From Tribonema minus (Eukaryota > Sar > Xanthophyceae > Tribonematales > Tribonemataceae), in contig JAFCMP010000542.1 in NCBI GenBank assembly GCA_017506865.1, positions 62,001-126,000 of the forward strand: a DNA stretch of 64,000 bases, read 5' to 3'. Position numbers and translations under genes: made by a program. The notes under the pieces are model-generated. The model saw only the letters and a list, made by a program, of their open reading frames with translations, searched no databases and was not told the DNA's origin. Positions 7,291-44,096 of this stretch are shown here, piece after piece (position 1 is the stretch's first letter; the number at the start of each line of letters is the position of its first letter).

Positions 7291-7427
7291 GATCCAACAG
7301 TTTGAAATAACAAAGTGCGCGCAGGCAACCTCTTTTGGTTTCCTCCGACATTTTTTCGCGCCTTGAACTTTGGGATGAGCCAAGAATTTAGTGACCGAAC
7401 ACGGACAAAGATCACCGCTAGGCAAGC

Positions 7428-9515: not shown

Positions 9516-9546
<31 letters not shown>

Positions 9547-11339: not shown

Positions 11340-11823
11340 GCTCGCCTGCACCCGTTACCATGTCACGTCTGCATACAGTTCCAATACATCGTCAGATGTC
11401 TGAGAACATGTTATGCTGATCATGCACATCAAGCATACTTCTGTAGAGGCGCCCAAAAAGGCTGTATGTAGCAATTGCTGAGCACATAGAGCCACAACGG
11501 GCACAGCTTCCTGGCTTGAAGTGGTGCCATGGCCCATCAGCCTGAACATAAAAAGCTTGAGAAACCATTGCAGCGCTGCCCTGCCTCCAACACAGTGGTT
11601 ATTCCCCATGCGTCAGCTCAAGCATATGTACAATTATTATGGCGACTCTCAGCGAGGTGCTGTGCTTGTGCACCGATGCACCTCCCATGGACTTCAAGTT
11701 CTGACTGCATAGAATTTCTACTGAGCAGTCGCCGCATCCGATGCCCTCAAGCTGATGCAATGCTGCCAGGGCGTGCGCCGCAACTGCAGTTGAAGTCGTG
11801 GATGCAGTTGAAGTTGCTCTGCC
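11340..11823 (-). repeat. Duplicated 3' flank of SET-MYND copy C
   Basis: On the minus strand this flank matches the flanks of the other copies: GATAGGGCAGAGCAACTTC after the stop, and CTGATGGGCCATGGCACCA near 11520-11540. It contains no gene of its own. Confidence 0.65.
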
Positions 11824-19803: not shown

Positions 19804-22571
19804 CTATCTGACCACCCTGAGAGCAGCGTCCCCCTCCCCGCTCATTCCACTAAAGTCCACTGGTGCTGCCCCCCCTGCGCCGCCGCCGCCGGCCAGCGCC
19901 GCGAAGCGCTTGCACACGCGCTTGTGGTGCCCCGCGTAGTGAGCGCGCTGGCACGCCGCGCCGCAGTAGCGCACGCAGTGGCAGCGCCCGCAGGACTTGA
20001 GCGCCGTTACCGCGGCCGCCACCGCCGCCGCCGCGCCGCGCGCCGCCGGCACCGCGCAGCAGTTTGCGCAGTACAGCGGAGCGTCACCCCCCGGGAGAAC
20101 GCCGAGCGCTGCCGCCATCTCCTGTGCTTCGTCGCTCTGAGGGCCAAGCATGGTGGCGACGACGGGCACATAGCGTCGCAGGTGCGGCACGAGGCGCGGG
20201 CAGCGCGCCGCGGCGATGGCAGCAGCGGCAGCAGCAGCAGCAGGGGCGGCCGTGGCGACGGCGGCGGCGGCAGCCGCAGCAGGGGCGGTCGCGGCGACGG
20301 CGGTGGCGGCAGCATCAGCAGGGGCGGCGGTAGCAGCAGCGTTGGCCCCGGGGGGCACGGCGGCGGCGGCGATGCTGGCGTGCTGCAGCGACTTGAGGGC
20401 GTTCAGCGCGTATGGGACGCCATCCTTCATGGACGGGTGCACGGCGTCGCACTCAGCGCCGCGGTCACAGCCCGCGACCGTGCACTCCAGCACGCGCAGC
20501 GCGTCCATCTCGGTCTTGGCGGCGAGCGCGTGGACCCTGGCGCGGCTGGTGATGACGCTGCCGTCCTCGTCGCTGAGCCGCGTTACTGCCATGTCGTTGC
20601 AGTTGGCCGCGGCGGTGGCGTACAGCGTCGCAAGCGACCCCAGGGCGCTGCGGACGATGATGTGCGTGGCGCACAGCTGCCGCCGCGCGTCCGCGATCAG
20701 CGCCGTCAGCGGAGCGTGGAGGCTCAGCTTTATGGCGCCGCTCTGCATCGCGGCGTTTAGCGCCTCCAGGCGGCGCGACGCCACCTCGACTGGCGCCAAG
20801 CGCGGCAGCACGGCGTCGCCGCGCAGCTGCAGCGCGCAGCGCGAGCACTGCCACGTCCACGCCGCCAGCTCGCCCTTGTGCAGCGCTGTGCAGGCGCGGC
20901 TGCCGGGCTTGGAGGGCCGCAAGGAGGCGAGCAGCAGCGGCGCGAGCGTGCCGCAGCAGCGCTCAGCAGCAGAGGCGGGGCACGGCAGGCCGAAGCCGAC
21001 GTCGGGCGCGCCGCAGCGCGCGCACGCGCACGCGTAGCCGCGGCGGAGCAGCGTCTCCTCGCGGCGCGCGCGCGTCGTGTCCGCGAGCTTGACGGTCTCG
21101 CGCGTGATGGTCTCGCCGGCGGCGATGGCGCGCGTCGCGACGAGCGTCATGTAGTGGGGCGTCGCGCGCACGCTGCGCATGCAGTTGGGCGCGCACGACG
21201 GCGCGGTCCAGCCCGCCAGGCGCAAGAAGCCGCGCCTGCGGCAGCAGCGGCGGCGGCGGCGGCAGTGGCGGCGGCGGCAGCGGCGGCAGTGGCGACGGCG
21301 GCGGCGACGGCAGCGGCGGTGGCGGCAGCATGCGTCAGCGACCGGGGATGATGATGCGATGTGCTTGTTGTGCAGTTCTGTAGCACGGTAGCGGCCTTGT
21401 TGTCAGCGGGAGTGGTAGAGGGGACGGGAAGCACAGGTGCTTGCAGCGCGGGGCAATTAGAGGTAGAGCGCACGGAAACTTCATCAGCAAACACATGAGA
21501 TTTACTGCGCCTCGTTCAGCTGGGTGACGAGCTCAAGCTACTTCAAGCTGAACATTGAAGCACATGCATCGCCCTGGTTTCAATTGCTGGCACTGCGTGC
21601 TATGATGCCATGGCCCATGATGCAAAGCAGAAATCGAGGCAAAGCGTCTTGACAATACAAGCAAGCGAAGGTAACATCACAAAAACGCTCATGTTTTTTT
21701 TTTGCAGAAGCAGATGGTGTTGATTTTTTATGCGCGGTACTTCAGAACATCAATTCACGCATGTGGAATCATTGCTTGTTGCAGTTCCTGTCCGATACCA
21801 TAAAGCTAAAGCTAAAGCTAACTTTTAAAACAGCAAGGAAGCCCATATGTAATGCCATCCGCATTAGGCAGCCAAACCCTTTATTTTGTGCTTCACGGTC
21901 TCGACACACCGTAATGACGCGTTCACTAACTACCAGTGTGGATTTGCACCGTGCGGTGTGCATGAAACGACAATCATTCAGCTGCTAGTGCATCAAATAT
22001 TACTCATCATCAAATTTTGTGTTTGTGGTTTGCGTCTGCAAGACGGCAATGCACTTCTTTATAACAAAAATGACTACTGTGAGACACTGATGTGCAGCAC
22101 GAGACAGCGGGTGCCACAAAGCGTGTGCCGTTCGGATGATTACCTCTCTTGCCACTCATTCGGCAGGCAGCTGAGGTGATGCGCCACCCCGCCGTAGGGC
22201 ACAGAGGCGGCAGGCATAGCCAGCCCTTGTGCAAGGCCTAGGAGCACAAATCTGGTCGCGATGTCCATGTCGATGCCGCCACCTGCCTCCCGAACCGCCC
22301 CAACAGCCACAGTGCGAGCCTGCTGGAGGGATAGCCGGGCGCTGTTCTGGTCCACGAAGAGGTCCAGCAGCTCAGCGATGCGCTCCGCTGGCATCATCTT
22401 CACCTGCCTCGTCAGATCCGCGTAGCTTGCATACAACACCAAAGGTCCCTCGCAGAGCACAATGTCTCCCGCAGCTATCTCCCTGGTTGCTTGTAGCACT
22501 CTGCCCAGCTGCGCATCGGGGGCCAGCTCCACGCGCTCCAGGCACTCGATGGGGTCAGCGCCGGACGTCAT
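19804..22571 (-). CDS. SET-domain protein with C-terminal MYND zinc finger (copy D, intact)
   Basis: Exon 1 is 22571-22144 (donor GAGAG|GTAATC) and exon 2 is 21235-19804 (acceptor CCGCAG|GCGCGG). The phases fit and give 619 residues. Exon 1 starts MTSGADPIECLERVELAPDA, with the SET N-part (LGRVLQATREIAAGDIVL) and IDMDIATRFVLLGLAQG. Exon 2 has SCAPNC, ATRAIAAGETIT, CACARC, a long Ala/Pro run at about 345-395 that is longer than in its paralogs, and a MYND finger near the C-terminus. The Asn-His of the canonical SET NHSC is replaced (TAPSC), as in the other copies. The likely role is protein lysine methylation or MYND-mediated binding. It faces MTHFR across a short shared upstream region. It is the best preserved minus-strand member and the reference for judging copy C. 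Confidence 0.8.
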
Positions 22572-22767: not shown

Positions 22768-25700
22768 ATGAAAATCATCGAGAAGATCAAGCATGCGGAG
22801 GCGCAGAAGCAAGTTTTCTACTCGTTCGAGTTCTTCCCTCCCAAGACTGCGGCCGGCGTCGAAAACCTGTGAGAGATGTCCAAAACATGTTGTTCAGCTA
22901 CGCAGCAGCGTCGCCAATCACTGGCAACAATCCGAGCAATCATGCACTCTCTGTCTACAATTGCAGGCAGCTGCTTTGGGCAGAGTGTTGCCCTTTTATT
23001 TTTCCGCTGTGCGACAACCTGCACGTTTGAAGTACATGCAAGGTGCCAACAGCTGAATATGAATGCGAATATCAACACATTCCGCTTGCACAAGTAGCCA
23101 GGGCTCCATTGGCCATACGCAAGTGTGCGTTGCTGTGAGGGACGTTCGTCGTCGAAATGCCAGCGTGAACTGCAACACATGCGCTCAACAGTGGCACATA
23201 CTGCTGAGCTCTTGCCCAAGGTTGTGCGCCTCTGCATAGCAATGCTCATTTGCAGTGTGAGTTACCTCAGTCGGCCAGCCCCAAGACGCGCTCAATCCGC
23301 TTCAAGGCCAGCACAAACAGGGTTTCCTCACACTGACATATGTGGCGTCCACGAGGGTGTAACCGGTGCTGCAAACCCTATGCCCCTGGATGCACATTCC
23401 GTACCCCCCAGCATCACTTCCTGCGAGCGCTCTCACAAAACCTTCACAACAGCGGCAGAAGGCATTAGGCAGACACGCACTTATGAGACGCATAACTGTT
23501 GCGGTACATGAAAACTGTTGAGGTTCCAGATTCCCCCAGGAGCCAATTAACGAGTTCACATTTACTGGCACCTACTGATCAAAACCCTTGTGGCTCATGC
23601 TTGTGCTGGGCTGGTGCACTATCATTTACGCAGCCATCTGCGCATGGAGCGGATGGCAGCGCTGGAGCCGCTGTTCATAGACGTCACGTGGGGGGCGGGG
23701 GGGAGCACGAGCGAGCTCACGCTGGCAATCAGCGCCGCCGCGCAAAAGTACCTGGGGGTGCAGGTGCTCATGCACCTCACATGCACGGGGATGACGGTGG
23801 AGCAGGTCAAGGAGGCGCTTATTAAGGTGAATGAATCATGAATCACTGGTGGGAATATTCATGATTTCGTGCACAGTAATGATAATGCATTGGGGTGCAG
23901 GTGCTCATGCACCTCACATGCACGGGGATGGCGGTGGAGCAGGTCAAGGAGGCGTTAATCGAGGTCCGCAAATGATGAATGAATGGTGCACATCATGAAA
24001 TGATGAGAAGGTATCGCGCGGAGGAAGCTCTGATAAGGAGTGAGATATGGCATTGAATCGTCGTTGGTGACGCGCTGCCTCAGCACAGTCGGTGTAGGAC
24101 GACGTGTTCACAAACATGTAGTCGAAATTCATGAACGGATGTGCGCATCTCTAGTCGATGGGAAGGGACCGACCAATACGGCATCACGACGGAATGGCGA
24201 AGGGCTTGCTTGGGAAAAAGAGGGTCAGGGTTAGGGTTAGGGTCAGGGTTTGTAGCCCACGCGTGGTGGCTGTTATCGCCGTGCTTATCACCGCTCAGCA
24301 GCATAGCATGCACTTTTATTTATTCTCAGTCAGGGCACAAAAGGCCGAGCATATACTTAAGAAAAGAAGCATTGCGAGGATGCAGACTTTATACAAACTG
24401 GTCAAAACTGAGGCCCTGATGATTCCTTACAAGGTGCAGTCAAGTTCAAGCGCAGTTACGCATACATTTTTCACACATTGGCCGGTAGGCGCGTTCCTGC
24501 CTGGAAGCTCGACCCTAACCCTAATCTATTCCTACCTCTATCTGCGAACAATCTGGCCTCGTTAGGGCGTACACACCCTAACCCTAGCCCTAACTTTATG
24601 CATGCGTAAAAGTCCGATGTACATTCGTACTCCATCGTACTGCAGCGCTGCACACGTGCTCCCAACTGTGAGCCGCGCTGCCGGAATAGGGTTAGGGTTA
24701 GGGTTAGGGTTAGGGTTAGGGACAGTCCTGGTACATTCGGAAGGAGTCAGCGCCCGTCGCTGGCTGCTTTCAGTATGTAGCACAGGCTGCCCAACAAAAG
24801 TTCAATTGCCTGTCCTGGCATGTTTTAGGCAGAACTAAATGATACTCCAAAGTATTGTGTGTTTCAGCGTTCCGAGGACAGATATTGAAGTTGCAGCCCT
24901 ACGCTGACCCCTGTTTTCATTGACAGGCTCGCGAAGCTGGCATCCAGAACATCCTTGCTTTACGAGGTGATCCCTCCAAGGGCAGTGCGGCATGGGAGGC
25001 AGTTACTGGCGGCCTTGCCAACGCTGCCGAACTGGTGAAACTCATACGGGAGGAGCACGGGGATTACTTTGGCATTGCGGTGGCGGGGCATCCTGAGGGG
25101 CACATCGACAGCACCAGCACAGAGCAGGTATAAATGCATATAATTCAAGTGTTTATGCATAATTTAAGTTTCAATGCTTAACCGCAAGTCTGTATGTCCT
25201 GATGGGCACGTCGATAGCACCAGCAGAGCAGGTAGTATGCACAACTTCAGGTGTGTATGTCCTGAGGGCCGCGCCGACAGCACCAGCAGAGCGGGTATTG
25301 AAGCATAACGTTTATTAATATGAGATTGTATCTCTCACAGGGGCTTAATTGTATGAGCAGGTATGCAGGCAGGCAGTCATAACTTCAAGTTCTCATTGTT
25401 GCAGTGCTTGTTGTTGTGTGACAGTGCTCATCAGCAGGGAGCGGGCGCACGTGCCTATGTGCGCTTGTGTGCACTATCTGTAATATGCGTGGTGGCAGGA
25501 AAGACGATGATTGACTTGCAGAAGCATTTGGACCGGCAGTGATGGTCATACTACAGCGTTCAACATGTGGCAGTGCTCAGTATAGGGGCCACACTGACAC
25601 CACCAGCAGACAGCAGTCGGGTATGTATCGGCTCTCAGTATGGCAGTGCTTATCATAGCCAGTGCTCAGCAGCCGGGGGACACACTGACCGCAGCGCTGC

Positions 25701-28700
25701 AGAGAGCAAGCACGTAGGCATGTATGCACGTGTTGGACGCACCTGTGGTGCTACCTACCACCGACGAGTTGCTTTCTCAAGGTCCCAGTGTTGTCATCTG
25801 TTTGAGTTGTGTTCATGAGCGTTTGCGTTGACAGCTCTGGCGGCAGGCAGGTAGCATCGGCCCACGTGATTGAGGTAATAAGTAATTTAAGGGCTATCAT
25901 TGGTGACGGCAGCAACGATAGGGTATCGTTTGTTGGCAGTACAATGACACGCTGACAATGCTAGCAGGGATCAGTACATGACAACAGCGCCTGTGAGTTT
26001 GAATGAGGCTTAGGCAACCCCTTCACCAACATCAGCTGTGGAAGCGACACATACATATATGTGCTTCGTTACATACAAGTTTTCTACAAGCAGATCGGGC
26101 TGTCGGACACGCCTTCTGACCTGCATTCGCCGGTGCAGTCGTGGCTTTAAGGATTAGGGTTAGGGTTATGCATGCCAGTGTTCACGAGGGACGACTGTGC
26201 ATACGCACCCTTTGACGCATACTCCCAAGCATGTAGACATGTAACCCTAACCCTAACACGCACGCCCTCCGATGTCCACATTCAATCATTCATTCGTCAT
26301 GCATGAATTCGCCGTCCATGCCAGTACTCACGAGGACTTAATTTGCATGATGACCATGAGCTTCGACTCTGTCATTTTGCCACGCTTCTTGCTCACCGCA
26401 TGGGGGTGCACGCCTACTGACGTGCACACAGCGAAGGGATCACTTATTTTTCGCCATTCCAAAAACGACTTTTGGCCCAGACTAGCTAGCCCCTACGGCA
26501 TCAATGTGCAAGCATTGCTTCAGGTGCGTGGCGCTTTGACAGGTTCCTGCACTTCAGGTGTATGCAGTGCTCAGCATTGCCGCTGCACGCAACACAAAAG
26601 TCAGCAACTCTGCGCCACGCGGATTTGCAGGTGCAGCGCATTTATCGCTTGCGAGCTCACTGGCCTGCAGCGCACGCAGCCACGGCTGCGCCAGCGCAGA
26701 CGTGCCACCGTCGCGCCATGACAGCAGCGCTCAGCTGCATCTCTGGCTGACGACTCTGAGTAAATTCATGAATTTCACTCCCGACTCTGTCACCAATTCA
26801 CGATTCTCGCACACACACCCAGGAGCTGCTGCACCTGAAGGACAAGCTCGCAGCGGGCGCGGACTTTGTCATCACGCAGTTCCTACGGCTCTATTTTATT
26901 TATGGTTGGAAATGTATCGGAATACTCCTGCAGCGCTTATCGCACACAACTGCTGCGGCTCTATGATCCATGATTGGTAATGTGATTGCAATACTTCTGC
27001 AATGCTTCGCGCACAACCCCCCAGGAACTGCTGCATCTGAAGGACAAGCTCGCAGCGGGCGCGGACTTTGTCATCACGCAGTTCTTCTACGACCCGGCGG
27101 CGTTTCTGACATATGTTGAGCACTGCCGTGCTGTGGGCATCACCGCCCCCATCATCCCCGGCATCATGCCCATACAGAGCTATACGGCGTTCAAGCTCAT
27201 GACGGACTACTGCAAGACAAAGGTGGGGTGAATTGGGTAGGCAGGTATGTGCCTTTTTTGTTTTGTTTTTTTGCATGGGTCTGAGCACTGCTGCTGAGCG
27301 GCGTTCAGGCTCATGACGGACTACTGCAAGACACAGGTGGGTGGGGTAGGCAGTATGCGCATTGGCTGAGCGCTGCTGCCTAGCGGCATGCCAGGGTCAT
27401 GGCGGACCACTGCGCATGCATGTACCACACTGCAAGAGAATCACAGTCACTGCGAGACAAAGGTGCTCATGTGTGTATGCTGATGCGTCTGAGCTGTCGC
27501 TGGCATTAATAACGTCGGCATTGTCAAGCGCTGTTGCGCTAATTGGAACCCTAACCCTAGGGCATGGCAGCGCTCATCAGAATCAAGCATCACGCCAGTG
27601 CAATATTACCATGGGTGGCTGTTGCACTTGAGGCGCGTGCGCATGCTGTCGAACTTCAAGTGTGTTGTTATTGGGACTGCGCTGCTTGTTGCATTGTATT
27701 GTGAGCGTGGCACACAGGGCGACTTGCGAACCGCAAGCGATCAGGTGCACGCATCCTCAAACGTCAACCCCCCCCCCCCCACACACACACACACACACTC
27801 ACTCACTCATACGCACACACACACCACTGCAGGTGCCCCCCTTTACTCACGAGGCGCCGCAGCCCAGCAAAGACAACGACAGATCTTGCTCAATGCACAT
27901 GGACAATGCCGCATCAAGGCACAGGGTAACGCTCCATTGAATCCAAACTTCATCTGCACGCTTCTTCAAACTTCAACTTCAACACCCCCCCCCCCCCCGC
28001 ATCACATCCCCTTGCGCGCGCAGGTCCCCCTCGCAATTCGCGAAGCCCTGGAGCCCATCAAAGACAACGACGAGGCCGTGCGTGCCTACGGCGTCACGCT
28101 GGGTGCCGACATGTGTCGCGCCCTCGTGCGTGCGGGCGTCCCCGGACTTCACTTCTACACCCTCAATCTTGAAGTTGCAGTCACCAACATTCTCAAGGCG
28201 ACGGGGTACTCGGAGTCCGCGGCGCTGCGGCGCGCGTACCCGTGGCGCCCGAGCAGCGACGCGCGGCGCGCTTCGGAGGACGTGCGGCCGATTCACTGGG
28301 CGAACCGCCCACACAGCTACATTGCGAGGACCGAGGTGGGTATTAGTAGGGTGGTAATCCGCCCGCACAGCTACATTGCGGACTGAGGTGGGGTTTGGAG
28401 GGTATGGTGAATTGAGAAGCGATGCGCAATGTGCATTACACCCCTCTTGAAGCGCAACACACCCATACACACACACATGCGTACGCAGGGGCTCATACGC
28501 ATGTGCCAAAGGCAATCGCTACTCACTCACTTGCTCGCGTGCTGCTCCTGAGTCGGCGCAATGTGCGCTCCTTTCGCACCATACGCGCCGTCGCTTGGTG
28601 GGGGGAACCTACCCCTAGCCCTGAGCCGGCATGCCGTGAAAAGCACTTGCTGCGTAACTGACGTATAACTGACATGTAACTGACATGTAACTGGGATGAA

Positions 28701-31700
28701 CGTCCCACAGCACACCACAAGCGCGAGCCATGTGCGGCCGGTTCAGGGTGTGAGTCGAGGTTCTCAATGGGCGCCAAAACGAGAGCGGCGAAACTGCCAT
28801 GTAACTGTCAGGGCACTCAAGTCTCAACATTGGTTAATTGTCAACTAACTATATAAGCCTTGTTTGCGCCGCATGCCACCGTCTCAGCTGTGGGACGGGT
28901 TCCTCAATGAGGGCTGCTGGGCGTTGGGCGCTAGTAACTGTCATGTAACTGTCACGCATCCCGTCACGATGCGCAATGATTTATCCGCATGCGGTGCTGT
29001 ACTGCACCAGCCTGCGCTGCCTGCTCGCTGTTGATGAAGTTGCTGCCAGATCTTCAACTGCCTTTTTGATCTTCGCTCATTTCGCGCAATGCTGCCGCTT
29101 CAAGTGTGAGACAACATTCCCTACGCACGCTGGAAAGGTGGGTGTAACTGCCAGAAAGCCCGTCGTGATTCGCGAGTACCTTTCTGTGGCACAAGAAAAG
29201 CACCCCCCTCCTCCCCCCTCCTGAAGGAATGGGGGGCGGGTGACTCCGATGGGAACACCACACGTGAAGGGCACAGAGGGCTTTTCCATAGCGTACAGTG
29301 ATTTCCGTCTTACATCAAAGCACGAGTCCGCTCACGCCGAGCGCTGCTGCTGCCTCAGATCTGAAATGAACATCTCAATAGGCGCTGGGGGAATGTGACT
29401 GCCACAAAGCTCATGTTGAGCACTGCTGCCGCCTCAACTCTGAGACAAAAGCTTGCGACCGACGCTGGAGCAGTGTTTTCACAAAACCTGTCACGATACG
29501 CTACTTGTCCATGACATAAAATGATTTTTGATTCAAACCAACACATGAGTCCAACGCCCATTGAGAATCTCATTGTCGACCTGAGGCGGCAGCAGTGTGA
29601 CTGTCACAAAGTCCATCACGACGTGCAACTATTTCTCTATAGCATACTCACAGTGATATTTCTTTTCAAGCACCAGTCAGCTCATGCTGAGGGCTGCTGC
29701 CGCCTCAGGTCTGGGACGAGTTTCCTATGGGCGCTGGGGCTATGTAACTGTCACAAAGTCCATCACGACACGCATGTTCTCCTCTATAGCATTGTTATAG
29801 TGATTTTTGTTCTGAAGCACGAGACTGCTCACTAGCCTTCCCACTGCTGCTGCCTCAGGTCTGGGACGAGTTCCCCAACGGGCGCTGGGGGGATGGACGC
29901 AGTCCTGCCTTTGGCCAATTGAGTGACAGCCACTTCTACCGATTTGCTGCGGGTAGCAGAGAGGACAGGAGGGGGCTCTGGGGGGAGGCCCCTATCGAGG
30001 AGAGCGAGATCTATGAGGTGTTCGCTGCGTACGTGGAGGGGAAGGTGAGATCAACTAACCCTAGATGAACTAACCCTAGATGGACTGACCCTACTGTAGT
30101 TGTCAGCGCTTGACCCTGAGGCAGCCAATACTAACCCTAGGTGTGAGTTGCGGTGTGAAGTTACCATAAGGCGGCCAATCATCGCTGTCATCATGGTATA
30201 CAGCTGCATGGAGCCTGTGAGTGTGTCGCCCTTGCGCCTTTCGCTTATCCTAGCCCTTACCCTGAAGGAGGGCATGCGTATGCAGGGTTAGGGTTAGGGT
30301 TAGGGGAAGCCTAGCTCTTATCCTGACGCACCTTCCAGCTGTACAAGTCCTAATTTGCTGTTTATTAAGACGACTAATTTTCAATCCTGGCCTTGTGGCC
30401 CAAACAATAAAGAAATGTGGTCGCTGCCGCAGGGAGTTTGAGCATTATCACTCGTGCCACACAGCTTCGACCATAAATGCAACTGTAACTGCTGGGCTTC
30501 GTTCAAATGTCGCCAGTGCACGCACACCCGATTTGTACCATGTTCGCCAACTACCAGACTCTGCGCGCGAGGTAAGACTTTTAGTTAAACATGATGTCAC
30601 CTCCCCCATCGCACGTACTTGTGTGGATGCTCACTAGGGTTAGGGTTAGGGTTAGGATTAGGGTTGAGGTTAGGGTTAGGGCTGGGTTTAAGGTTAGGGT
30701 TGGGACATCGCCGGCCTCCAATTTCGCGTCTGCTTCCAACTCTCGGCACCGCACACGCGTGCACAATGCATGACACACACCAAAGTCTGGTGTCTCATTG
30801 GTGGAGTAACCGCCCCCATGTCGGTGACTGTGCCGTGTCCACAATCGCGCATTAGACTGGCAGCATCGTTTACCTTTTAGTAATGACATACTACCCTGCA
30901 AATGAATACTTGTCAAAGCGCATTACGAAAGTATTGCGCCTCACCATCAACAAACGCCTCCCCCCCCCCCCCCCCCCCCCCCCCCTCACCACCCCCCCAG
31001 ATCCCCGCCCTCCCCTGGAGCGAGTCCCCCCTGCACCTCGAGTCAGCGCTCATCCGCGCACGCCTCGCACGCATCAACCGCGCCGGCTACCTCACCATCA
31101 ACTCCCAGCCACGCGCGAATGGCGAAAAGTCAGATGACGCAGCGTTCGGTTGGGGGGGGCCGGGGGGGCGTGTGTATCAGAAGGCCTACGTCGAGTTTTT
31201 CACTAGTCCAGAGGGGCTGGAGAGGGTGCTGAGCGTGTGTGAGGGGCGGCCGCATTTGAGCTATTACGCCGTGGATGCGGAGGGAGACTGCCGCAGCAGG
31301 GGGGGGAGGGGGACGACGGCCCTCACATGGGGGGTGTTCCCCGACAAGGAGGTGAGGGGGGGCTACTGCAGTGCTCATGTTGTCAACTATGAAGTGAAGC
31401 AGTGTTTGTATCGCTGCGCAGCAGTGCGAATGAATGAGCACAACAGTATGAATGCAGTACCAATCTGGGAGGAGGGAAGGGGGGGGGGGTAAAGGGGACG
31501 GGGCTCGCCTGGGGGTGTTCCCCCACAAGGAGCCAAGTGCTCAGCTGAGAGGCGCATCTGGTGGTGAGTACGAAATGAAGCAGTGGTGATACCATTGCGC
31601 AACAGCATGAATAAGCGCCTTATTAAAGGAGACTTTGGGAAGGGGAAGGGGGGGGGGATTTCAAGAAGGAGGTGAGCCAACAGCTGTGCTCAGCTTGGGG

Positions 31701-34384
31701 TTGCTCAGACGTGGGTACTATGAGGCAGCGCTTATACAACTGACCAACAGCACGCATTTGTGACAGATTTGGGGAAAGTGGAGCAGGGGAAGGGGGGGGA
31801 GGGGGGATGTTGCGCGCTCATATGCCAGGTAGTCCCGTCAAGCAGGTCAGCATTGCTCAGCACTGCTCACCTTGGCCCCAGAATGCACTTGATTTGACAT
31901 TCGAGAGGTATGGCTATATGTGGGGAGGGGGCGGGGGGGGCGATTGTCAGTTCAGCCATGTACTCGAGCTCGCCGTGCCTGTACTCGTGCGTGAACCGTG
32001 TAGGCACTCTTGTCTTGTTTAGCAGCGCGCTCCGCCTTCAAGGGTGCGCGAGCGCTGTCGAGTGGGCATGTGAACTGTGTACCCTTGTCAGCTGTGAACT
32101 GTGTACTCTTGTCTGTTCTAGCAGCGCAGTATATTAGGGCTTGAGTACAGGAGCAGTGCCACGTGGCTGATCAGGGTTAGGGTTAGGGTTAGGGTAAGGG
32201 TTAGGGTTAGGGTTAGGGAGTGCCATTGCTGCTCTCCAGGCTTGTGGAGCTCTCGAACGAACTCCGCGCCTAGTGTTGTGCAGGTGCTTCAACTCCGACT
32301 GACCGTGTTCACAATTTTGACAAATCCAAACGAACACATCTGACGTCGAGGCTTGATTTGGAATGTCGAGTATGGATGGTACATGTATATGCATGTAGTA
32401 TGGCATGCATGAAGTTCAAGTGTGAATGCCAATGTCAGTGTACTTTGTTTAACGTAGAACCCATAATCTTATCCGTTCGTGGCAGATGCTGCACACCATA
32501 TCCGAAGTCAAGGCCTTGCTGGTGTGGCGCAGCGAGGCGCTTGAACTGTGGACACACGCATGGTATTTATGTATGACAATGTTAGTTCTCATCACCTCGT
32601 CCGTTTTTGCAGGTGCTTCAACCCACCATATTCGATGTGGAGGCCTTTCTGGAACTCGAAGTGCAAATGGTGTGTATGTTCAACAATGTGAACCTCATTG
32701 TATCGTCCGTTTCTGCAGGTGCTTCAACCCACCATATTTGACGTGGAGACCTTTCTGGTCTGGCGCAACGAGGCATTCAACCTCTGGACACACCTCTGGG
32801 CCACGGCCTACTTGGAGGACAGCAGAAGCGCTGCCCTGCTGCATGACGTCCACGACACGTACTACCTCGTGGCCATCATAGACAATGACTTCTTCCAGGT
32901 AACGTGTTGTCGTGACTAGAACATGCTCATCATTAGTTCTGAGGACAGGCTTATTTAGCTCTGCTGCGCGACGTTCACGACACCTACTACCTGGTGGCTA
33001 CCATCGTAGACAATGACTACTTCCAGGTACGTTGTCATTACTAGAATAGGCTTATTATGAGTGCCGAGAACAGGCTTATTTAGCTCTGCTGCACGACGTT
33101 CACGACACGTACCACCTCGTGGCCATCATAGACAATGACTACTTCCAGGTGCGGCGTTTTTATTGTTTTTTGTCGTGATTGGTGTTGGTTAATTTTATGT
33201 GTGACTGTGTAAGATTTGGTGTCGTCGTGATTTCTGTTGGCTTATTGATGTGTTTGGCCGCGCAGAGTTCGTCACAGCTGTTGGTGTGGTTGGGGCTACT
33301 ACTTCAAAGTATAATATATATATTATGATGGATAATGCCAAGACCACGTTAGACCCACATTCTCATCTTGAATTCTGGTGCGAGGCCTCGTTGGTTGGTT
33401 GCTGAGTAAACGCTATTTGCTTCTTGTTGGCACTTCGATGGACGAACAAAGAAGGATCGAGTTCAGTCTCCCAAGTAACTTCTCACCGTCCACTTGTTCA
33501 AAACTTCAAAACTCTCATGTCAACAACCTGAAACGGCACAACGTTGAAAACCATTAGCAACTTTGCATGTTGCTTGCTTGGCATCTTCACTAGCTGTAGG
33601 CGCAATCCACTGTGCCACGCGATTGTGGACGGCAAGTTAATCCGGAGTTCAGTCTCCCAAATAACTTTGCTGCCAAGTCACGTTGTTCAACACTCCCGCC
33701 CTCTCAACGTTCTCGACTTCAACGACACGACAGTGAAAGTCATCAAGAATTTGCATGCTGCCTGCTTGGCATCTTCACTAGCTGTAGGCGCAATCCACTG
33801 TGCCGCGCGATGTTGGAGGGGTCAACTTCACAGTTGAAGTTCAGCGGGGCTTGTGAAGTGCACTCTTTAAGTGCTGTACAGAAACGGTGATTGATGCTAC
33901 TGCACCGAGCCTTCCGTGCATCGGCGACGAGACATGAGACACCAAGTGGTGCTGATGGCATACATACTTGCCTTTGAGCAAAGCGGTACGGATGTATGGA
34001 TGAGATCAGTATGGCCGGTGGAGGTGTGAGCAAGCACAAAGGCGACAAGCATGAACAGCATCAAATGATAATTCAACCCCCCCGCATACAATTGTGATGC
34101 CCTCGAGGTTTCTCACGCTGCATCCTGCATCAAACCACCTTCCAATCCCCAATATACCGTATTTGCCCTCTGTTTTGCAACTGACATGATGTTTCCATGC
34201 ATTGTTTTTCTGATCCAAGTACTTCAACATGAATGTGTGACATCAGCTGCATAAAGAACATATTTTGAATACACAAGTTTTTGAATACTCTGCGCTTTTG
34301 GTGCTCGTTTACTTGCAGGACGATCTTTGGGAGGGTTTTATCGACGACTTATTGGCCATCCCCGCAGCCGCCAACGGGACATAG
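22768..34384 (+). CDS. MTHFR: Methylenetetrahydrofolate reductase, nine exons, complete
   Basis: Exons: 22768-22868, 23634-23826, 24927-25127, 27025-27222, 28024-28335, 29859-30044, 31001-31351, 32719-32898 and 34319-34384. All use GT-AG with matching phases and give 595 residues. The enzyme reduces 5,10-methylene-THF to 5-methyl-THF for methionine synthesis, using FAD. The N-terminal catalytic barrel shows YSFEFFPPKTAAG, FIDVTWGAGG, HLTCTGM, ILALRGDP, GADFVITQFFYD, PIIPGIMPIQ and PGLHFYTLN. The DVRPIHWANRPHSYI linker leads to the C-terminal regulatory-type domain of eukaryotic enzymes (INRAGYLTINSQP, QKAYVEFFTS, ALTWGVFPDKE, DEAF-like NEAFNLW, DNDFFQDDLW). Human MTHFR is somewhat longer at the N-terminus. 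Nearly every intron holds partial copies of adjacent exon ends (listed). None is needed for an intact reading frame. Confidence 0.95.
23892..23963 (+). repeat. Partial copy of MTHFR exon 2 (3' end with donor)
   Basis: This 72-bp copy of 23755-23826 has no indels and a GT after it. It lies in intron 2, lacks an acceptor of its own, and carries a few substitutions. Confidence 0.85.
24221..24250 (+). repeat. Interstitial telomere-like tract
   Basis: About five units of the TTAGGG/TCAGGG type lie in intron 2 of MTHFR. Short CCCTAA tracts on the other strand follow at 24511-24524 and 24575-24594. Confidence 0.85.
24687..24721 (+). repeat. Interstitial telomere-like tract
   Basis: Nearly six perfect TTAGGG units lie in intron 2 of MTHFR. 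This is the least diverged tract in the gene. Confidence 0.9.
25198..25620 (+). repeat. Degenerate copies of the 3' end of MTHFR exon 3
   Basis: Copies at 25198-25231 and 25261-25293, and a more diverged one at 25584-25620, resemble the exon 3 end (coding for GHIDSTSTEQ and the donor). Each is followed by GT. They are graded in decay. Confidence 0.7.
26153..26256. repeat. Telomere-like tracts in opposite orientation
   Basis: TTAGGG units at 26153-26169 face CCCTAA units at 26241-26256 in intron 3 of MTHFR. A further short CCCTAA tract lies at 27547-27561. Confidence 0.8.
26823..26882 (+). repeat. Copy of the 5' end of MTHFR exon 4 with acceptor
   Basis: The first 60 bp of exon 4 (27025-27084) are copied with their CCCAG acceptor. 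The following intron-like sequence is also repeated (two TGCTGCGGCTCTAT-type copies). Using this acceptor would add a broken exon. Confidence 0.85.
27301..27336 (+). repeat. Copy of the 3' end of MTHFR exon 4 with donor
   Basis: GCGTTCAGGCTCATGACGG and following, then CAG|GTGG, copies the end of exon 4. Two more decayed traces follow around 27390-27465. Confidence 0.8.
27768..27827 (+). repeat. C-run and CA microsatellite
   Basis: A C homopolymer followed by a CA/CT dinucleotide array lies in intron 4 of MTHFR, just before a decayed exon 5 copy. Confidence 0.9.
27833..27880 (+). repeat. Decayed copy of the 5' end of MTHFR exon 5
   Basis: After a CTGCAG acceptor the sequence reads VPPF...KDND in the frame where the true exon reads VPLA...KDND. 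It lies about 190 bp before exon 5. Confidence 0.7.
28359..28387 (+). repeat. Copy of the 3' end of MTHFR exon 5 with donor
   Basis: CCGCCCACAC/CCGCCCGCAC-AGCTACATTGCG is repeated about 50 bp after the real exon end, with a GGTGGGG donor again. One 1-bp indel breaks the frame. Confidence 0.8.
28888..29741 (+). repeat. Array of intron-5/exon-6 junction copies
   Basis: At least four decayed copies of the exon 6 start (true exon from 29859) occur at about 28888, 29105, 29359 and 29709. Each is preceded by a TGCTGCCGCCTCAG-type acceptor and followed by the TGTAACTGTCACAAAG-type intron block. Copies nearest the real exon are most similar to it. Confidence 0.8.
30283..30306 (+). repeat. Interstitial telomere-like tract
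   Basis: Nearly four TTAGGG units in intron 6 of MTHFR. Shorter CTAACCCTA traces precede it at 30055-30140. Confidence 0.85.
30635..30704 (+). repeat. Interstitial telomere-like tract, imperfect
   Basis: About 70 bp of TTAGGG units with several variant units in intron 6 of MTHFR. Confidence 0.85.
31510..31542 (+). repeat. Copy of the 3' end of MTHFR exon 7
   Basis: GGGGTGTTCCCCCACAAGGAG repeats the exon 7 end (coding for GVFPDKE), but the donor GT is lost (CC instead). A second decayed trace ends at 31670 with GGAG|GTGAGC. Confidence 0.75.
32173..32219 (+). repeat. Interstitial telomere-like tract
   Basis: Nearly eight TTAGGG units, one of them variant, in intron 7 of MTHFR. Confidence 0.9.
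32486..32671 (+). repeat. Two copies of the 5' half of MTHFR exon 8
   Basis: Copies at 32486-32564 and 32613-32671 each follow a GCAG acceptor and resemble the start of exon 8 (32719). The first keeps an open frame similar to VLQPTIFDVETFLVWRNEAF but has no donor in register. The second diverges after FL. Confidence 0.8.
32959..33148 (+). repeat. Two copies of the 3' half of MTHFR exon 8 with donors
   Basis: Copies ending at 33026 and 33148 both read LLxDVHDTYxLVAxIxDNDYFQ-like and end CTTCCAG|GT, as the real exon does at 32898. They lie about 120 bp apart in intron 8 and lack acceptors. Confidence 0.85.
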
Positions 34385-34807: not shown

Positions 34808-37290
34808 TGTCATGACCAACAAATCAGTGTACGCGTGCCTGGCTGGGCAGCTTTGCCGACGCCGGGAACGTGTGAGCAATTGCAGGTAATTTTACCCAAT
34901 GCCACAACAAATGCCCTGATGTGATCAGAATGTCCGCAAAGCATATGCATAGAGAGCCCAACCCCCCACCGATCATCGCAGTTCGCCCTGTCTTTCTCCA
35001 GGGCGGTTGGCGTAACCGTTTTGCAACTGCTGCGTTGGCAAAAAAACCTCAGTCACTCGCTGCCTCTCCCGATGGCATTTGAGGCTAAGGAGGATGGCAG
35101 CGAGCGAGAGGGAGGGCAGATCGCTGGAAACAGCAGTGCCGTCCTCCGGCTTTCTGAGCGCGGCTCACAGGTGAGCTGGGCGCAAAGTCTGGCGCCATCA
35201 CTTCGTGTAGCGTGAGGTACTAACTAGTAGGCTTGTTTGCAAAGAGCACAGAGGGCACTGCGAAAAGAACGGCAGGACGCCGCGGCTGGCTCTAGGGTTC
35301 CTTCCCTAGAGGCGACCGTGGTGTCCTTCGACCTCGTGCACTGCGAGCTGAGGTCTGTGATTGCCCACGGCGCTGCAATCATCAGCTTACCATGTCTGAA
35401 GCGCTGCAGCAACACTCTCTGCTAACGGCATATCACTGAGGCGTTGGCACCAGAAGCAGCCTGGTCTGCGGTGAGGCCCTCGTGTCCCCTTTCTGGGTGG
35501 CGGCAAGCCCAGACGCACTCCTAATGTTTGGCTCGTAGTGGTCTCTGTGCTCTTTGGAAGTAGTGCGTTGGCGGAAGTAGAGCCCAGAGGCCCCATGGCA
35601 CCCACAACATAGCTGCTTCATTATAGACCAATACATCAGTCCAGCTAGACATCCCGGCTTAATAATAGGGTACCGTGGCCTGGGTTTGTAGGAAGTGTTA
35701 GGCGTAGCTGCAGTGTAGCTGAAGGCTGGAGAGGCATCGGACATAGGCCAGGCTTAACAGCATGTTTGAGATCCACTGTAGTGGGGAGGGGATACGGGTG
35801 TCTGTCTTGTGCGGCCCCCCCTTTCTGCTGCTCTCGCAGATGGCTCTGTGTCAACCGCGTGGTTGCCTCTAGACAGTTCCCTGTCACTGACGGCGGTTGG
35901 CGATGTGCATGCAATACTGAATCGCAGGAGGGTACTGTAGCACTTGTTGTTTTCCCTCCTCTGGGGGTATGGGGGTATTCCGCTGCCTCCATGCTTCCCG
36001 GGCCGTCCCTATGTCCGATGCCAGCTCCAAGACCTTCAATTAGAAATTGCTTCTGTAGATGTAGTTGTGGTAGTGGTAGGTCCCCCGCTATGGTCTCCAC
36101 CTTGTTGTGGTGCGGGGGCTTCGTGGTGAGCCTTGGGCAAGTTCACTGCTGTACTAAAGAGAGACCCAGGTAGGTGCATACATGGCCCTTGCATGTGCCA
36201 GCATTCAACGAAGTTTCTAATCAATGATGCCAAGTTGCAGATGTGTGGAAACAGGCGTGGAGTGCGGCACCATACTGTGGTATACCTACCTACCCTGATG
36301 GACATCTGCCGGGTGAGTCTGCAGGCGTGGCTAGGTATTGTGACAACAACGTGTATACTTCTATGCGGGCGTGAATCATGTGTTGAAACAGCATGCTCAA
36401 GTGGCATTCATCATTTTTGGTGAGGATGGGACATAAAGCGCATTCCGCCTGGTATGCAAGTAGGTATTGCTGCCGCCAGAGTAGCCTTCTGGTGCTAGCC
36501 GAGCTTGCAACATTATGCCGCGCTTGCAGTTTTGTGGCTCACCGCACCCTCCACGTTCATCTGTTGGAAGCTGTCGACATGTCTGTTTTAGTACGTGACT
36601 TGACCATCAGGATACCGCCAGGTGCCACTGTACACAGGCAGTACATGGACAGCACATGCGCAGGTCATGATTGCCATGCGCTACGCTCACACCTTGTCGT
36701 TTTTCGCACTGCTTCTTGCATGATTTGCAGGTGGTGAAGCTCGAGCGCAAGTGCATTGCTGGTGCGCCGAAGAGTTCAAGTGATGAAAGCGCCGGAAGTT
36801 GGTTTGTATTACGAGCAGAAACGTATTAGCGACACAGCACATTCGTTTTTGGCACCACATGGGGGCACATGGGGGCAGCACAACATACGATCTCGATATT
36901 GTTTCAGCACTTCAAGTTCTTTTGTCTTGCAGGGTATGCAGCACCGTGTTCTGGCTCGTGGTCAACAGTGTGCTGAGCTTTACTTCACCTGATAATGATG
37001 ACTGTTTCCTTTTACTGTCACTGCTGTGAGTCTTCAAGTTCTGTCAAGTGCTCTGCGTGCGTTTGTTGTAGTGCCTTGCCCGCTGTGGTCCTAGTTGCTG
37101 CTACAGCGCCGTGTTGAGACCACTTCAAATACAATTCTTGCGTGTGCTCAACCACTGCTGCACACCCTTGCAAACTTGAAATTCATTATTTCTGAGGAAA
37201 CTGAATGCGCAAGTTGAAGTGCACTCCACACAATGTCAAGGTGTGTTCACTGAGACAGGCTTCTCGAGGCACACTGCTCAGTCAGTTCAA
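34808..37290 (+). repeat. Tandem segment, unit 1 of 3 (unknown content)
   Basis: About 2.48 kb matches units 2 and 3 over most of its length. Several stretches look like exons on the plus strand: 34990-35170 (after CTCCAG, ends CACAG|GTGAGC) and 35237-35425 (TVVSFDLVHCELRSVIAHGA). A third, near 36225-36320, reads KQAWSAAPYCGIPTYPD. The exons cannot be joined into one frame with confidence, and stops interrupt them. The product is not recognised. Minus-strand open frames also exist. Confidence 0.6.
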
Positions 37291-37847: not shown

Positions 37848-40370
37848 CTGTCACGACTGACAGCCATGTGCGTGTGTGCCTGATTTGAGACCAGTGCCCA
37901 ATGCTGGTGCCAACGCCAGTGTATGGCGATTATTAAGCAACCGCAGGTGGATTTACTCAATGCCGCTGCCGCTGTGTCCCCCCGGGGGACAATGCCCTGA
38001 GCATCCACTTTTGCGCACGCGGTGGGCGTAACCGTTTTGCAACTGCCGCACCACGTCACTCGCTGACTCTCCCAATGGCAATTGAGGCCGAAGGAGGATG
38101 GCAGCGAGCGAGAGGGAGGGCAGATCGCTGGAAACGGCAGTGCCGTCTTCCAGCTTTCCAAGCGCGGCTCACAGGCGAGCTGCGTGCGAAGTCTACTGTA
38201 GCACCGTCACTTCGTGGCGTGAGGTAGGCTTCTTTGCAAAGAGCACAGAGGGCACTGCGAAAAGAACGGCAGGAAACTGCGGCCGCCTCTAGGGCTCCTT
38301 CCCTAGAGGCGACCGTGGTGTTCCTCGACCTCTTGCACTGCGAGCTGAGGTCTGTGATTGCCCGCGGCGCTGCAATCATCAGCTTACCATGTCTGATGCG
38401 CTGCAGCGATACTACCTGCTAACGGCATATCACTGGGGCGTTGGCACCAGAAGCAGCCTGGTCTGCGGAGAGGCCCTCGTGTCCTCTCTTTGGGCGGCGG
38501 CAAGCCCAGGGCGCCCTCCTAATGTTTGGCTCGTAGTGCTCTCTGTGCTCTTTGGAAGTAGTGCGTTGGCGGAAGTAGAGCCCAGAGGCCCCATGGCACC
38601 CACAATATAGCTACTTGATTGCATGTAGATGATTGCATTCAGTCCAGCCAGACATCTTACCTAATAGGGTACCGTGGCCTGGGCTTGTAGGAAGTGTTAG
38701 GTGTAGCTGCAGTGTAGCTGAAGGCTGGAGAGGCATCGGACATGGGCCAGGCTTATACAGCCTGTTTGAGATCCACTGCAGTGGGGAGGGGATACGGGTG
38801 TCTGTCTTGTGCGGCCCCCTCTTTCTGCTGCTCTCGCAGATGGCTCTGTGTCAACCGCGTGGTTGCCTTTAGACAGTTCCCTGTCACTGACGGCGGTTGG
38901 CGATGTGCATGCAATACTGAATCGCAGGAGGGTAGCACTTTGTTGTTTTCCCTCCTCTGGGGGTATGGGGGTATTCCGCTGCCTCCATGCTTCCGGGCCG
39001 TCCCTATGCCCGATGCCAGCCTCCAAGTCCTTGGGTTATAACTGCCTCTAGAATTGCTTGTGTAGGGAGCAGTAGATTTAGTTCTGGTAGTGGTAGGTCC
39101 CCCGCTATGGTCTCCACCTTGTTGCGGTGCGGGGGCTTGGTGGTGAGCCTTGGGCAAGTTCATTGCTGTACTAAGAGAGACCCAGGTAGGTGCATGCATG
39201 GCCCTTGCACGTGCCAGCGTTTGGCAAACTTTACAGTGACGGAAGTGTGGAACAGGCGTGGACCGGCGCACCATACAATGGCATGCCTACATACCCTGAT
39301 GCTATGGACATCTGTCAGGTGAGTCATGCAGGCTTGGTTAGATACATGTAGTGGATACCAGGACATGAGATACGCACTGCAGTGTCATTCCCAATTGGCA
39401 TTGTTTCATGGACACGAATCAAAAGATCGTAGAGCTCTAGGTGACAAGGTGTGGTGAGCCGTCAAATGAATGCCTTCCACCAATAATCGTGGTCGCCGCT
39501 GCTGCGGCAATTGTCCAGAGTCTTTCTTTTATGTTGCACTGAGCATTTGGCACAAGGCTCGCTATGCAAGTTGGTACTACTGCCGCCAGAGTGGGCTCCT
39601 TGTTCTCGCTTGCAACATACTGCCCCCCTTGCATTGTTGTGCCTCACCGTGCTCACCGCGTTCATCTGTTGGCAGCTGTCTGTTTCCAGCAAGTAGGTGG
39701 TGGTCGACTAGACCGCCAATAGTCCGCCACGTGCCACAGTACATTGCGTGCACTTGCTCACACCTTGTCATTTTTTGCACTGCTTCTTGCATGGCTTGCA
39801 GGTGGCAAAGCTCAAGCACACGTGCATCACTGGTTTGCCAGAGTCCCAGTGGTTCAGGCGAAGGGAAATGGTTTCAAACAGCCAAGAGCAGAAACGCAGT
39901 CGTGGCTGCACATTCGCATTTGGCCCCATTTGAGGGCAGCACGGCATACGGCCTCGCTATTGTGTCAGCACTTCTTTGGTCTTGTACAGCATGCAGCACA
40001 GGTTCTGGCATGTTGTCGGCAGCTTGCTGTGGCTTGTTGAAACTCGTAATGACAAACTTTTACCTCTACTGTCTCTGCTTTGAGTCTTCCTGTCAAGTTT
40101 TGTACTTCTACATGCTTTTGTTGAAGTGCCTTGCCTGTTGTGGTACTGGTTACTGCTACAGCACCATCATGAGACAACATGAACTGCCATTCTTGCGTGT
40201 GCTGAACCCACTGCTGCACCCGTGGAAACTTGATGCTCATCACGTCACGTCTGATGAAACTGAATGCGCAACTGGAGGTGCGCTCATCACGAGCTACACG
40301 ATGTTTGCGTGTGTTCATGGAGACAGGCTTCTTGAGGCACAATGCTCAGTCGTTCAGAGGTGTAAGTAAG
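37848..40370 (+). repeat. Tandem segment, unit 2 of 3 (unknown content)
   Basis: This is the best preserved unit. Plus-strand exon-like blocks include 38234-38422 (TVVFLDLLHCELRSVIARGA), 38389-38610 (LTAYHWGVGTR... then NVWLVVLSVLFGSSALAEVE, hydrophobic) and 39222-39318 (EQAWTGAPYNGMPTYPDAMD then CAG|GTGAGT). The last block and its unit-1 counterpart share QAWxxAPYxGxPTYPD despite indels, which suggests a coding origin. I recognise no family. Confidence 0.6.
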
Positions 40371-41627: not shown

Positions 41628-44096
41628 GTCCTGTCGTGACTGACAGCCATGTGCGCGTGTGCCTGGTTTGAGACCAGTGATCAATGCTGGTGCCAACGCC
41701 GGCAATGTGTGGCATTTATTGAGCAATTGCAAGGTGGATTTACCCAATGCCGCTTCCTCTAGAGATCTGCAGTGAGAGACAACATGCCCTTGATGAGCAT
41801 CCACTTTGCGCACTGCGGTGGGCGTAACCGTTTTGCGTGCCGCCAGGGGCTGCCTCTCCCGATGGCAATTGAGGCTGAAGGAGGATGGCAGCGAGCGAGA
41901 GGGAGGGCAGATCGCTGGAAACGGCAGTGCCGTCTTCCAGCTTTCCAAGCGCGGCTCACAGGCGAGCTGCGTGCGAAGTCTACTGTAGCACCGTCACTTC
42001 GTGGCGTGAGGTAGGCTTCTTTGCAAGGAGCACAGAGGGCACTGCGAAAAGAACGGCAGGAAACTGCGGCCGCCTCTAGGGCTCCTTCCCTGGAGGCGAC
42101 CGTGGTGTTCTTCGACCTCGTGCACTGCGAGCTGAGGTCTGTGATTGCCCACGGCGCTGCAAACATCAGCTTACCATGTCTGATGCGCTGCAGCACTCTA
42201 GCTGCTAACGGCATATCACTGAGGGGTTGGCACCAGAAGCAGCCTGGTCTGCGGATAGGCACTCGTGGCCTCTCTTTGGGCGGCGGCAAGCCCAGGGCGC
42301 CCTCCTAATGTTTGGCTCGTAGTGCTCTCTGTGCTCTTTGAAAGTAGTGCGTTGGCGGAAGTAGAGCCCAGAGGCCCCATGGCACCCACAACATAGGAAA
42401 GATTGCTTAGCAAAAGCGCAACTTATCTGAACTAGACACCTGCCTTGACAATAGGGTGCCTTGGCCTGGGCTTGTAGCAAACGTTAGGTGTAGCTGCAGT
42501 GCAAGAAGGCTGGAGAGGCATCGGACATAGGCCAGGCTTGTACAGCCTGTTTGAGATTCACTGCAGTGGGGAGGGGATACGGGTGTCTGTCTTGTGCGGC
42601 CCCCCCTTTCTGCTGCTCTCGCAGATGGCTCTGTGTCCACCGCGTCGTTGCCTTTAGTCTGTTCCCCGTCACTGACGGCGGTTGGCGATGTGCATGCAAT
42701 ACTGAATCGCAGGAGGGTAGCACTTGTTGTTTTCCCTCCTCTGGGGGTATGGCGGTATTCCGCTGCCTCCATGCTTCCCGGGCCGTCCCCATGTCCGATG
42801 CCAGCCTCCAATCCTTCGGTTATAACTGACTGTAGAGTTGCTTGCGTAGGCAACAGTAGATGTAGTTGTGGCAGTGGTAAATCCCCCGCTATGGTCTCCA
42901 CCTTGTTGCGGTGCGGGGGCTTGGTGGTGAGCCTTGGGCAAGTTCACTGCTGCACTAAGAGAGACCCAGGTAGGTGCTGTACTTGCAGGGCCTTGCATGT
43001 GCCAGCGTTCAGCAAATTCTATAATCAATGATGCCGAGTTGCAGGTGTGTGGAACGGGCGTGGAACATACCATGGTATACCTACCCTCATGGACATTTTC
43101 AGGTGAGCCTACAGGCATGGATAGGCACCTAGACAAACAATGTGCATAAGTGGACAAGAGACGTATATTGAAACAGCATGCTTAACTGGCATCATCAGTT
43201 GCGTTGTGGATTTGGCATGAAGCTAACTTCGCCTGGTATGCAAGTAGGTATTGCTGCCGCCAGTGACGGCTGCTGGTTCCAGCTTGCAACATCCTGCCCC
43301 GGTTGCATTGTGTGCCTCACCGTACCTACACGTTCATCTGTTGGCAGCTGTCTGTTTTAGCAGGCGGTGGTTGACTAGCACCACAATACCGCCACCTGCC
43401 TTTGTACACCGGCAGTACATGGACAGTACATGCACAGGTCACGATCACCATGTACTTTTTATTAATTCTCGCTCAGGGCGCGAAAAAGCCCAGATGATTA
43501 GCATCTAGCTGTAACGAATCTACATGTCGTATGACAGTCTGAAAGTGTGTACTTTTTACTAATTCTCGCTCAGGGCGCGAAAAAGCCCAGATGATTGGCA
43601 TCTAGCTGTAAGGAATCTTCATGTCGTATGACAGTCTGAAAGTCGCAACGACAACCACTCAAACGCCACCGCCGCCAAATGGCATCTCGGGGTCCTCCCC
43701 TACGTCCTCCTCCATGTGCCCCCCCCCATGTACTACGCTCACACTCTGCCAATCACTGCTGCGCTGCTCGTTGCATGCCAAAGCTCAAGTGATACAAGCG
43801 ACCTGAGTTGGATTATTAAGCGCAGTAACGTAGTGGTGGCGCTGCACAACATAGCTTTCAACACTCCCTGGTGGCAGCAGGGCATAGGGTATAGAGATGT
43901 TGTCAGCACTTTGATCTTCGTCTCAGCGGGTATGCAGCAGCACCATGTTCTAGCACGATGCTTCTGAAGGCGTGCTTGTATCTTCAAGTTGCATCTTGTA
44001 AATGTGACTTCTTATTTCTCCTGCCTTTTGTCCAGCTCGAGTGTTGTGCATGCTTTTGTTCAAGTGCTTTGCCTGCTGTGATGGCTGAGTTTCTAT
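41628..44096 (+). repeat. Tandem segment, unit 3 of 3 (unknown content)
   Basis: Counterpart of units 1 and 2, interrupted by an insertion at 43456-43725. The plus-strand block LEATVVFFDLVHCELRSVIA is kept (42021-42308). The PTYPD block is shortened and frameshifted. A minus-strand open frame of 176 codons (42289-41759) overlaps. It is not conserved at that length in the other units. Confidence 0.55.
43448..43733 (-). mobile_element. Nested double retroelement-like insertion in unit 3
   Basis: The insert 43456-43725 is flanked by CCATGTAC on both sides, and units 1-2 lack it at this point. It contains two head-to-tail copies of the shared 3' end, the first about 97 bp and the second about 175 bp, joined at a GTAC. 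The second extends into the PFGGGG coding tail. Confidence 0.7.

Follow-up and report, generated by a model that had tools for sequence, protein, structure and literature searches.

Are the pieces of exon sequence that lie in the introns of the MTHFR gene of Tribonema minus, a xanthophyte alga with a genome of 158 Mb, real copies of the neighboring exon ends, and if so, by what process were they made and what becomes of the splice sites copied with them? We addressed this question in a window of 64,000 nt (G000:C539:62001-126000), the whole stretch of DNA that was analyzed and to which all positions below refer unless another contig is named, and in other genes of the same alga.

The MTHFR gene model has eight introns of 765-1897 nt each. 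Its product of 595 aa is identical to the NCBI T. minus MTHFR protein (P0001) and carries the Pfam domains MTHFR (PF02219) and MTHFR_C (PF21895). The NCBI protein uses the parent splice sites and, compared with the gene model, contains no extra exon. Elsewhere in the window, several mutually related reading frames occupy 5905-13458 and 19804-22571, one of them, on the opposite strand, with its start some 200 nt ahead of MTHFR. They resemble SET/MYND-type proteins, and the frame at 11824-13458 had no Pfam match at E 0.001. Alike short reading-frame stretches occur three times (35645-36407, 38753-39274 and 42407-43157) and suggest a dispersed repeat. Rfam gave no match in the window at gathering score.

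Exon ends are copied into the adjoining introns of MTHFR

The 16 MTHFR exon ends (60 nt each) were aligned with the adjoining intron, the seven other introns, the antisense strand and 200 dinucleotide shuffles. Ten ends (E2 3', E3 3', E4 5', E4 3', E5 5', E5 3', E6 5', E7 3', E8 5' and E8 3') each have a copy on the same strand of the adjoining intron, with scores of 22-56 that 0/200 shuffles reached at any of them (best shuffle score for these ten, 18.5). The same ten ends scored at most 15 in the other introns and at most 12.5 on the antisense strand, and in this within-gene test each copy resembles only its own junction among the MTHFR introns. Six ends (E1 3', E2 5', E3 5', E6 3', E7 5' and E9 5') had no copy in the adjoining intron when compared with the 200 shuffles. 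Exon middles were unremarkable against introns in 12 of 14 tests; the two marginal cases, E4 against I4 (score reached by 4/200 shuffles) and E7 against I7 (1/200), scored lower than all ten copied ends.

The copies found by self-alignment are collected in Table 1. In most of them the intron flank accompanies the exon part, and identity between copy and parent ranges from 61 to 93% over the aligned stretches. An earlier note on this DNA had described 3' ends copied with their donor and 5' ends with their acceptor in exons 2 to 8, graded in decay and never comprising a whole exon, and this description holds within MTHFR. Its count of at least seven of the eight introns was too high: copies are held by six (I2, I3, I4, I5, I7 and I8), and exon-end alignment against the 200 shuffles gave none in I1 and I6. 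The matches exceed what composition produces, the alternative that the earlier note had itself raised. Chance similarity is thus rejected by the shuffles at all ten ends, and an assembly artefact is unlikely because copy and parent diverge by 7-39% over the aligned stretches, each copy with distinct differences; apart from low-complexity runs nothing favors either explanation, and we find them barely credible. The tandem pair wholly inside intron 8 is the same kind of event as the junction copies, away from a junction.

Table 1. Features of the MTHFR locus of T. minus (window positions).
Feature	Position	Strand	Parent	Remarks
MTHFR gene	22768..34384	+		9 exons; protein identity and Pfam domains
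MTHFR exons 1-5	22768-22868, 23634-23826, 24927-25127, 27025-27222, 28024-28335	+		gene model
MTHFR exons 6-9	29859-30044, 31001-31351, 32719-32898, 34319-34384	+		gene model
Copy of exon 2 3' end, donor and 25 nt of intron	23892..23988	+	23755-23851	offset 137; 87% identity; 40 nt unmatched spacer
Two copies of exon 3 3' end and donor	25197..25307	+	25091-25157	offsets 106 and 169; identity 80-81%
Weaker copy of exon 3 3' end, GT lost	near 25580-25611	+
Copy of last 19 nt of intron 3, acceptor and exon 4 5' end	26804..26882	+	27006-27084	79 nt matched; offset 202; 92% identity; 123 nt unmatched spacer
Copy of exon 4 3' end, donor and intron	27299..27413	+	27185-27327	head-to-tail: offset 114, shorter than the 144 nt alignment
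Copy of acceptor and exon 5 5' end	27829..27880	+	28020-28071	52 nt matched; offset 191; 77% identity; intron part 4 nt only
Short copy of exon 5 3' end, then retained donor GT	28359..28387	+		exon-end alignment; below threshold in self-alignment and in the 37-intron family count
Decayed array of intron 5 end, acceptor and exon 6 5' end	28874..29744	+		units 28874-28931, 29318-29395, 29596-29744; 153 nt aligned at offset 147; short inverted piece at ~29542-29600, in three alignments
Decayed array of exon 7 3' end and intron	31483..31799	+	from 31299	head-to-tail: 357 nt aligned at offset 184; 61% identity
Two copies of intron 7 end, acceptor and exon 8 5' end	32438..32652	+		32438-32557 (68%); 32560-32652 (82%, offset 107)
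Two further head-to-tail units of exon 8 3' end, donor and intron	32958..33162	+		TRF 2.5 copies; series of three units of 125 nt; 211 nt aligned at offset 125
Tandem pair inside intron 8, no exon part	33459..33820	+		offset 186; 76%
Telomere-like TTAGGG/CCCTAA runs, introns 2, 3, 4, 6 and 7	24218..32226	.		at least 9 runs: ~24218, 24575, 24687, 26141, 26244, 27549, 30281, 30635, 32173

Occurrence in other genes

The repeated local process proposed for MTHFR is supported there and is seen in other T. minus genes too. Seven other loci, five of CCT chaperonin and two of MTHFR-like genes, show exon-end copies, with large differences between genes. The two further MTHFR-like genes lie on G000:C107 (about 59-64 kb) and G000:C544 (about 1.814-1.823 Mb), and their exon pieces are about 48-58% identical. 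A splice-modelled set was assembled from 37 introns of 12 genes (8 introns of MTHFR and 29 others); of 35 core pairs outside MTHFR, four had no splice model and two with weak models were excluded. It contains 39 duplication families, of which 14 involve a donor, 12 an acceptor and 13 intron only. A junction copy is present in 20/37 introns, and recognizable direct duplications cover 9112 of the 33524 intron bases (27%).

Across 253 kb, alignments within 600 nt were direct in 270 cases and inverted in 9, counts that include several alignments per array and two satellite-like loci. The offsets between copies are mostly 100-250 nt (151 primary offsets; median 161, IQR 131-213.5, mode 140-160). 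No contiguous pair came from locus L029. Simple-sequence and telomeric alignments were filtered out. A check based on coordinates only, which started from 201 matches to kinesin, CCT and MTHFR profiles and shares several loci with the seven above, returned eight nested pairs. One of them joins two copies and the other seven join an exon and a copy; in all seven the match lies within 2 residues of the exon edge that faces the copy.

Density is uneven. MTHFR holds 17 of the 25 direct alignments of the window, and junction families range from one in the seven introns of CCT_C279 to six in the four of CCT_C135. When ten reading frames from each of three duplication-rich random loci were compared with Pfam, one match lay above the cut-off (CLU, L023) and two below. 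Among the PMC matches listed, as represented by titles and abstract openings of mainly open-access literature, we found no description of junction copies of this kind for T. minus.

Short-range direct duplication and its probable part in intron growth

We consider it likely that T. minus undergoes frequent direct duplication over short range, probably arising from break repair, which is tolerated where splicing permits and contributes to intron growth. Nuclear DNA would be duplicated in direct orientation, with copies mostly at the offsets given above. Duplications inside exons would be removed by selection, and those within introns or across one exon-intron junction would be tolerated. At a junction, the splice site that maintains the reading frame would stay with the exon. 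The second copy, made up of exon end, splice site and flank, would turn into intron and decay, its splice site presumably not being used under normal conditions. If exon-only duplications are purged, the families should cross or reach a junction; 24/26 junction families cross it, and 25/26 reach within 15 nt of it.

Repeated events at one junction would build small arrays and with them longer introns. Junction copies increase with intron length (Spearman 0.47, P 0.003, 37 introns) and are present in 2/9 introns under 500 nt compared with 18/28 of those of at least 500 nt. Since longer introns hold more copies, the introns of T. minus probably grow in part through repeated duplication at their junctions.

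The molecular source would most likely be fill-in of staggered breaks followed by end-joining. Repair of breaks with protruding ends is described as yielding tandem duplications (PMC5730883), and the direct orientation expected from such fill-in agrees with the 270 direct and 9 inverted alignments. The duplications of that report are direct and adjacent, as in T. minus, but they were obtained with 46-nt overhangs in mouse cells, whereas the alga has offsets mostly of 100-250 nt and some families with spacers. Replication slippage, microhomology joining and template switching may be alternative sources. The telomere-like runs of the MTHFR introns (Table 1) belong to the same topic, as interstitial telomeric runs are described as marks of repaired breaks in mammals (PMC2246262). 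Telomere-like hexamers reach 17 and 16 per 10 kb in the two segments that contain MTHFR and 0-8 in the other four scored; over 27 segments a link between telomeric runs and duplications was not established (Spearman 0.35, P 0.08).

Tandem or displaced copying

The arrangement of the copies was assessed by the fill of each family, that is, the matched length as a fraction of the offset, in comparison with simulated tandem duplications subject to decay. Fill is at least 0.8, meaning head-to-tail, in 11/26 junction and 8/13 intron-only families, about half of all families, compared with 68-77% in the simulations. In the remaining 15/26 junction families an unmatched part separates copy and parent, whereas the simulations put 25-32% below 0.8. 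Fill falls below 0.5 in 9/26 junction and 5/13 intron-only families (simulated, 9-17%; 11-17% in the comparison for junction families), and in 5/6 families of at least 85% identity (simulated, 2-12%). Residual flank similarity was found in 5/15 junction families with fill below 0.8 and in 0/5 such intron-only families. The 15 alignments of at least 90% identity comprise five adjacent pairs and ten with gaps of 104-504 nt. Fresh products of staggered-break fill-in would be expected to be adjacent and to share little microhomology. Duplication borders are legible on few young pairs only; of the five adjacent pairs, two have overlaps of 10 and 3 and one has no overlap, and the other two, with 342 and 11, belong to a single three-unit array.

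Spacer families are therefore commoner than simulated, and decaying plain tandem duplications explain only part of the pattern. By the fill and flank-similarity results, plain tandem duplication with uniform decay is incomplete as a full account. Either intron turnover is faster than modelled, or some copies derive from short displaced copying.

Displaced local copying would have a new strand switch, during repair or replication, to a template 100-200 nt off and then return, so that 30-100 nt across the junction would be transferred and a short copy with a spacer left behind. Such an origin would account for the 15 junction families with an unmatched part, for the 5/6 high-identity families that match less than half of their offset, and for the 10/15 spacer families without residual similarity outside the matched block. 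However, it also predicts copies of exon interiors, yet 25/26 junction families come within 15 nt of the junction, and exon middles are absent from the MTHFR introns save for the two marginal scores. The 11 junction and 8 intron-only families that are fully head-to-tail argue against it as well, as does the scarcity of inverted copies. Template-switch copies of the FoSTeS/MMBIR type would be displaced and often inverted; an unmatched part is present in 15/26 junction families, and the 37 introns hold four inverted alignments, three of them in MTHFR intron 5. The earlier suggestion of template switching or microhomology repair may thus hold for part of the copies: inversion is almost absent, but displaced copying would explain the unmatched parts. 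On balance, we think displaced copying rather unlikely and retain tandem duplication as the probable main process, though with less confidence because of the shortfall in fill. The spacer families would then also be tandem duplications, their intron part having been turned over.

Are the duplications centered on junctions?

It was suggested that the process is centered on exon-intron junctions. We simulated uniformly placed duplications in which exon-only events were purged, the exon parent was conserved, copies decayed and detection was the same as for the real data. Junction families make up 26/39 of those observed (0.667). The simulated share averages 0.37-0.55 over six settings giving 43-51 families, and the observed value was reached in 1/160 runs; three settings with lower rates gave 0.37-0.44, with a maximum of 0.63. 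The binomial P for 26/39 runs from 0.095 to 0.0002 against shares of 0.55 to 0.37. When MTHFR, the gene of discovery, is left out, 17/27 families (63%) span a junction, for which P is 0.26, 0.17, 0.09, 0.06 and 0.006 against shares of 0.55, 0.52, 0.48, 0.46 and 0.37.

Purging of exon-only duplications and the longer recognizability of exon copies, whose parent is conserved, raise the junction share without any targeting. Geometry, selection and detection thus suffice for most of the centering, and a modest excess may be left over. A mutational process aimed at junctions, for instance by breaks linked to transcription or splicing or by nucleosome edges at exons, would explain this excess. Nucleosome size is close to 140-160 nt, the modal offset. 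The excess itself depends on the decay setting once MTHFR is left out, being significant only at the lowest one, and intron-only families have offsets similar to those of junction families. We therefore regard an aimed process as unlikely. What may stand of the suggested centering is a share modestly above that of uniform placement; most of it is produced by uniform placement itself.

Copied splice sites

Whether the copied splice sites serve any function is a separate matter. The MTHFR copies keep GT in 8/9 mapped donors and AG in 7/7 acceptors, and across genes the splice dinucleotide is kept in 40/45 copies. Compared with the other GT/AG dinucleotides of the same stretches, donors are kept in 22/26 cases versus 69/94 (P 0.18) and acceptors in 18/19 versus 20/31 (P 0.014). 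This control overlooks the constraint on the parent splice site itself. With dinucleotides at codon positions 1-2 as control, 34.4-35.9 of the 45 would be expected to persist (P 0.02-0.06): for donors the expectation is 19.5-20.6, not significantly different, and for acceptors 14.8-15.3 (P 0.04-0.06). Strong conservation of the splice sites, to which a first comparison had pointed (donors P 0.04, acceptors P 0.002), shrank to a marginal excess under this fairer control. Identity between copy and parent is 0.845, 0.877 and 0.807 at codon positions 1, 2 and 3. Third positions are the most divergent, as expected if the exon is the constrained parent.

A combined scheme, in which junction-biased duplication would seed intron borders with intact splice sites, acceptors would be kept, a reservoir of decoy or recursive sites would result and introns would lengthen stepwise, appears quite unlikely to us. 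That the copies are functional splice sites under selection, be it as decoy, alternative or recursive sites, is less probable still. The retention figures just given would be its signature, the acceptors especially, but they shrink under the codon-position control, all 16 MTHFR copy sites examined (16/16) would bring in a stop if used, and the NCBI protein relies on the parent sites. Nor do these stops lend support to the earlier suggestion that alternative splice sites could be created here at a high rate. We read the copied splice sites as passive, with a weak hint of retention for acceptors.

Relation to known systems

Among the literature matches listed, the nearest published case is that of the potato RdRp gene, in which a tandem duplication across an intron-exon boundary is described as having given a new intron and which also has an 83-bp tandem duplication within an intron (Ma, Lan and Niu 2016, PMC4974935). 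The likeness lies in a direct tandem duplication that spans an intron end and the next exon start together with splice signals. In potato, one recent event produced a new intron and added exon sequence. In T. minus, in contrast, the copies turn into intron, the annotation shows no new exon, ages are graded, and 20 of the 37 introns tried are affected.

In the model of intron gain by tandem genomic duplication, an exonic AGGT is duplicated and an intron thereby created (reviewed in PMC3443670). It shares with our case a local tandem duplication with splice-like sites, and exons do end in AG before GT at most MTHFR junctions. However, what is duplicated in T. minus are junctions that already existed. 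Under the model, the downstream exon start should reappear at the beginning of the intron and the upstream exon end at its close; MTHFR shows the opposite order, and its copies include intron flank as well. This origin is rejected on copy order and seems highly improbable.

Introners are dispersed similar copies and constitute intron sequence of repetitive origin. The duplications described here share this repetitive origin of intron sequence. Unlike introners, MTHFR copies match their own junction only, and the similarity across unrelated introns that an introner or transposable element would leave was not found among the MTHFR introns, which were the ones compared.

Intron growth, and the choice of the spliceosome among near-identical neighboring sites, are usually known from single cases. 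With duplicated donors or acceptors in 20/37 introns, often as graded series, both questions become testable in one genome. For annotation there is a warning, as exon-end copies may pass for alternative exons or additional domain hits.

Young tandem duplications also occur in the window outside MTHFR, at 2167-2646 (97%, offset 235) and 43451-43643 (96%, offset 97). Two small contigs (L019, C250:20001-30000; L020, C300:20001-23065) are made up largely of a diverged repeat whose offsets are about 143-155 nt, near the modal offset of the local duplications.
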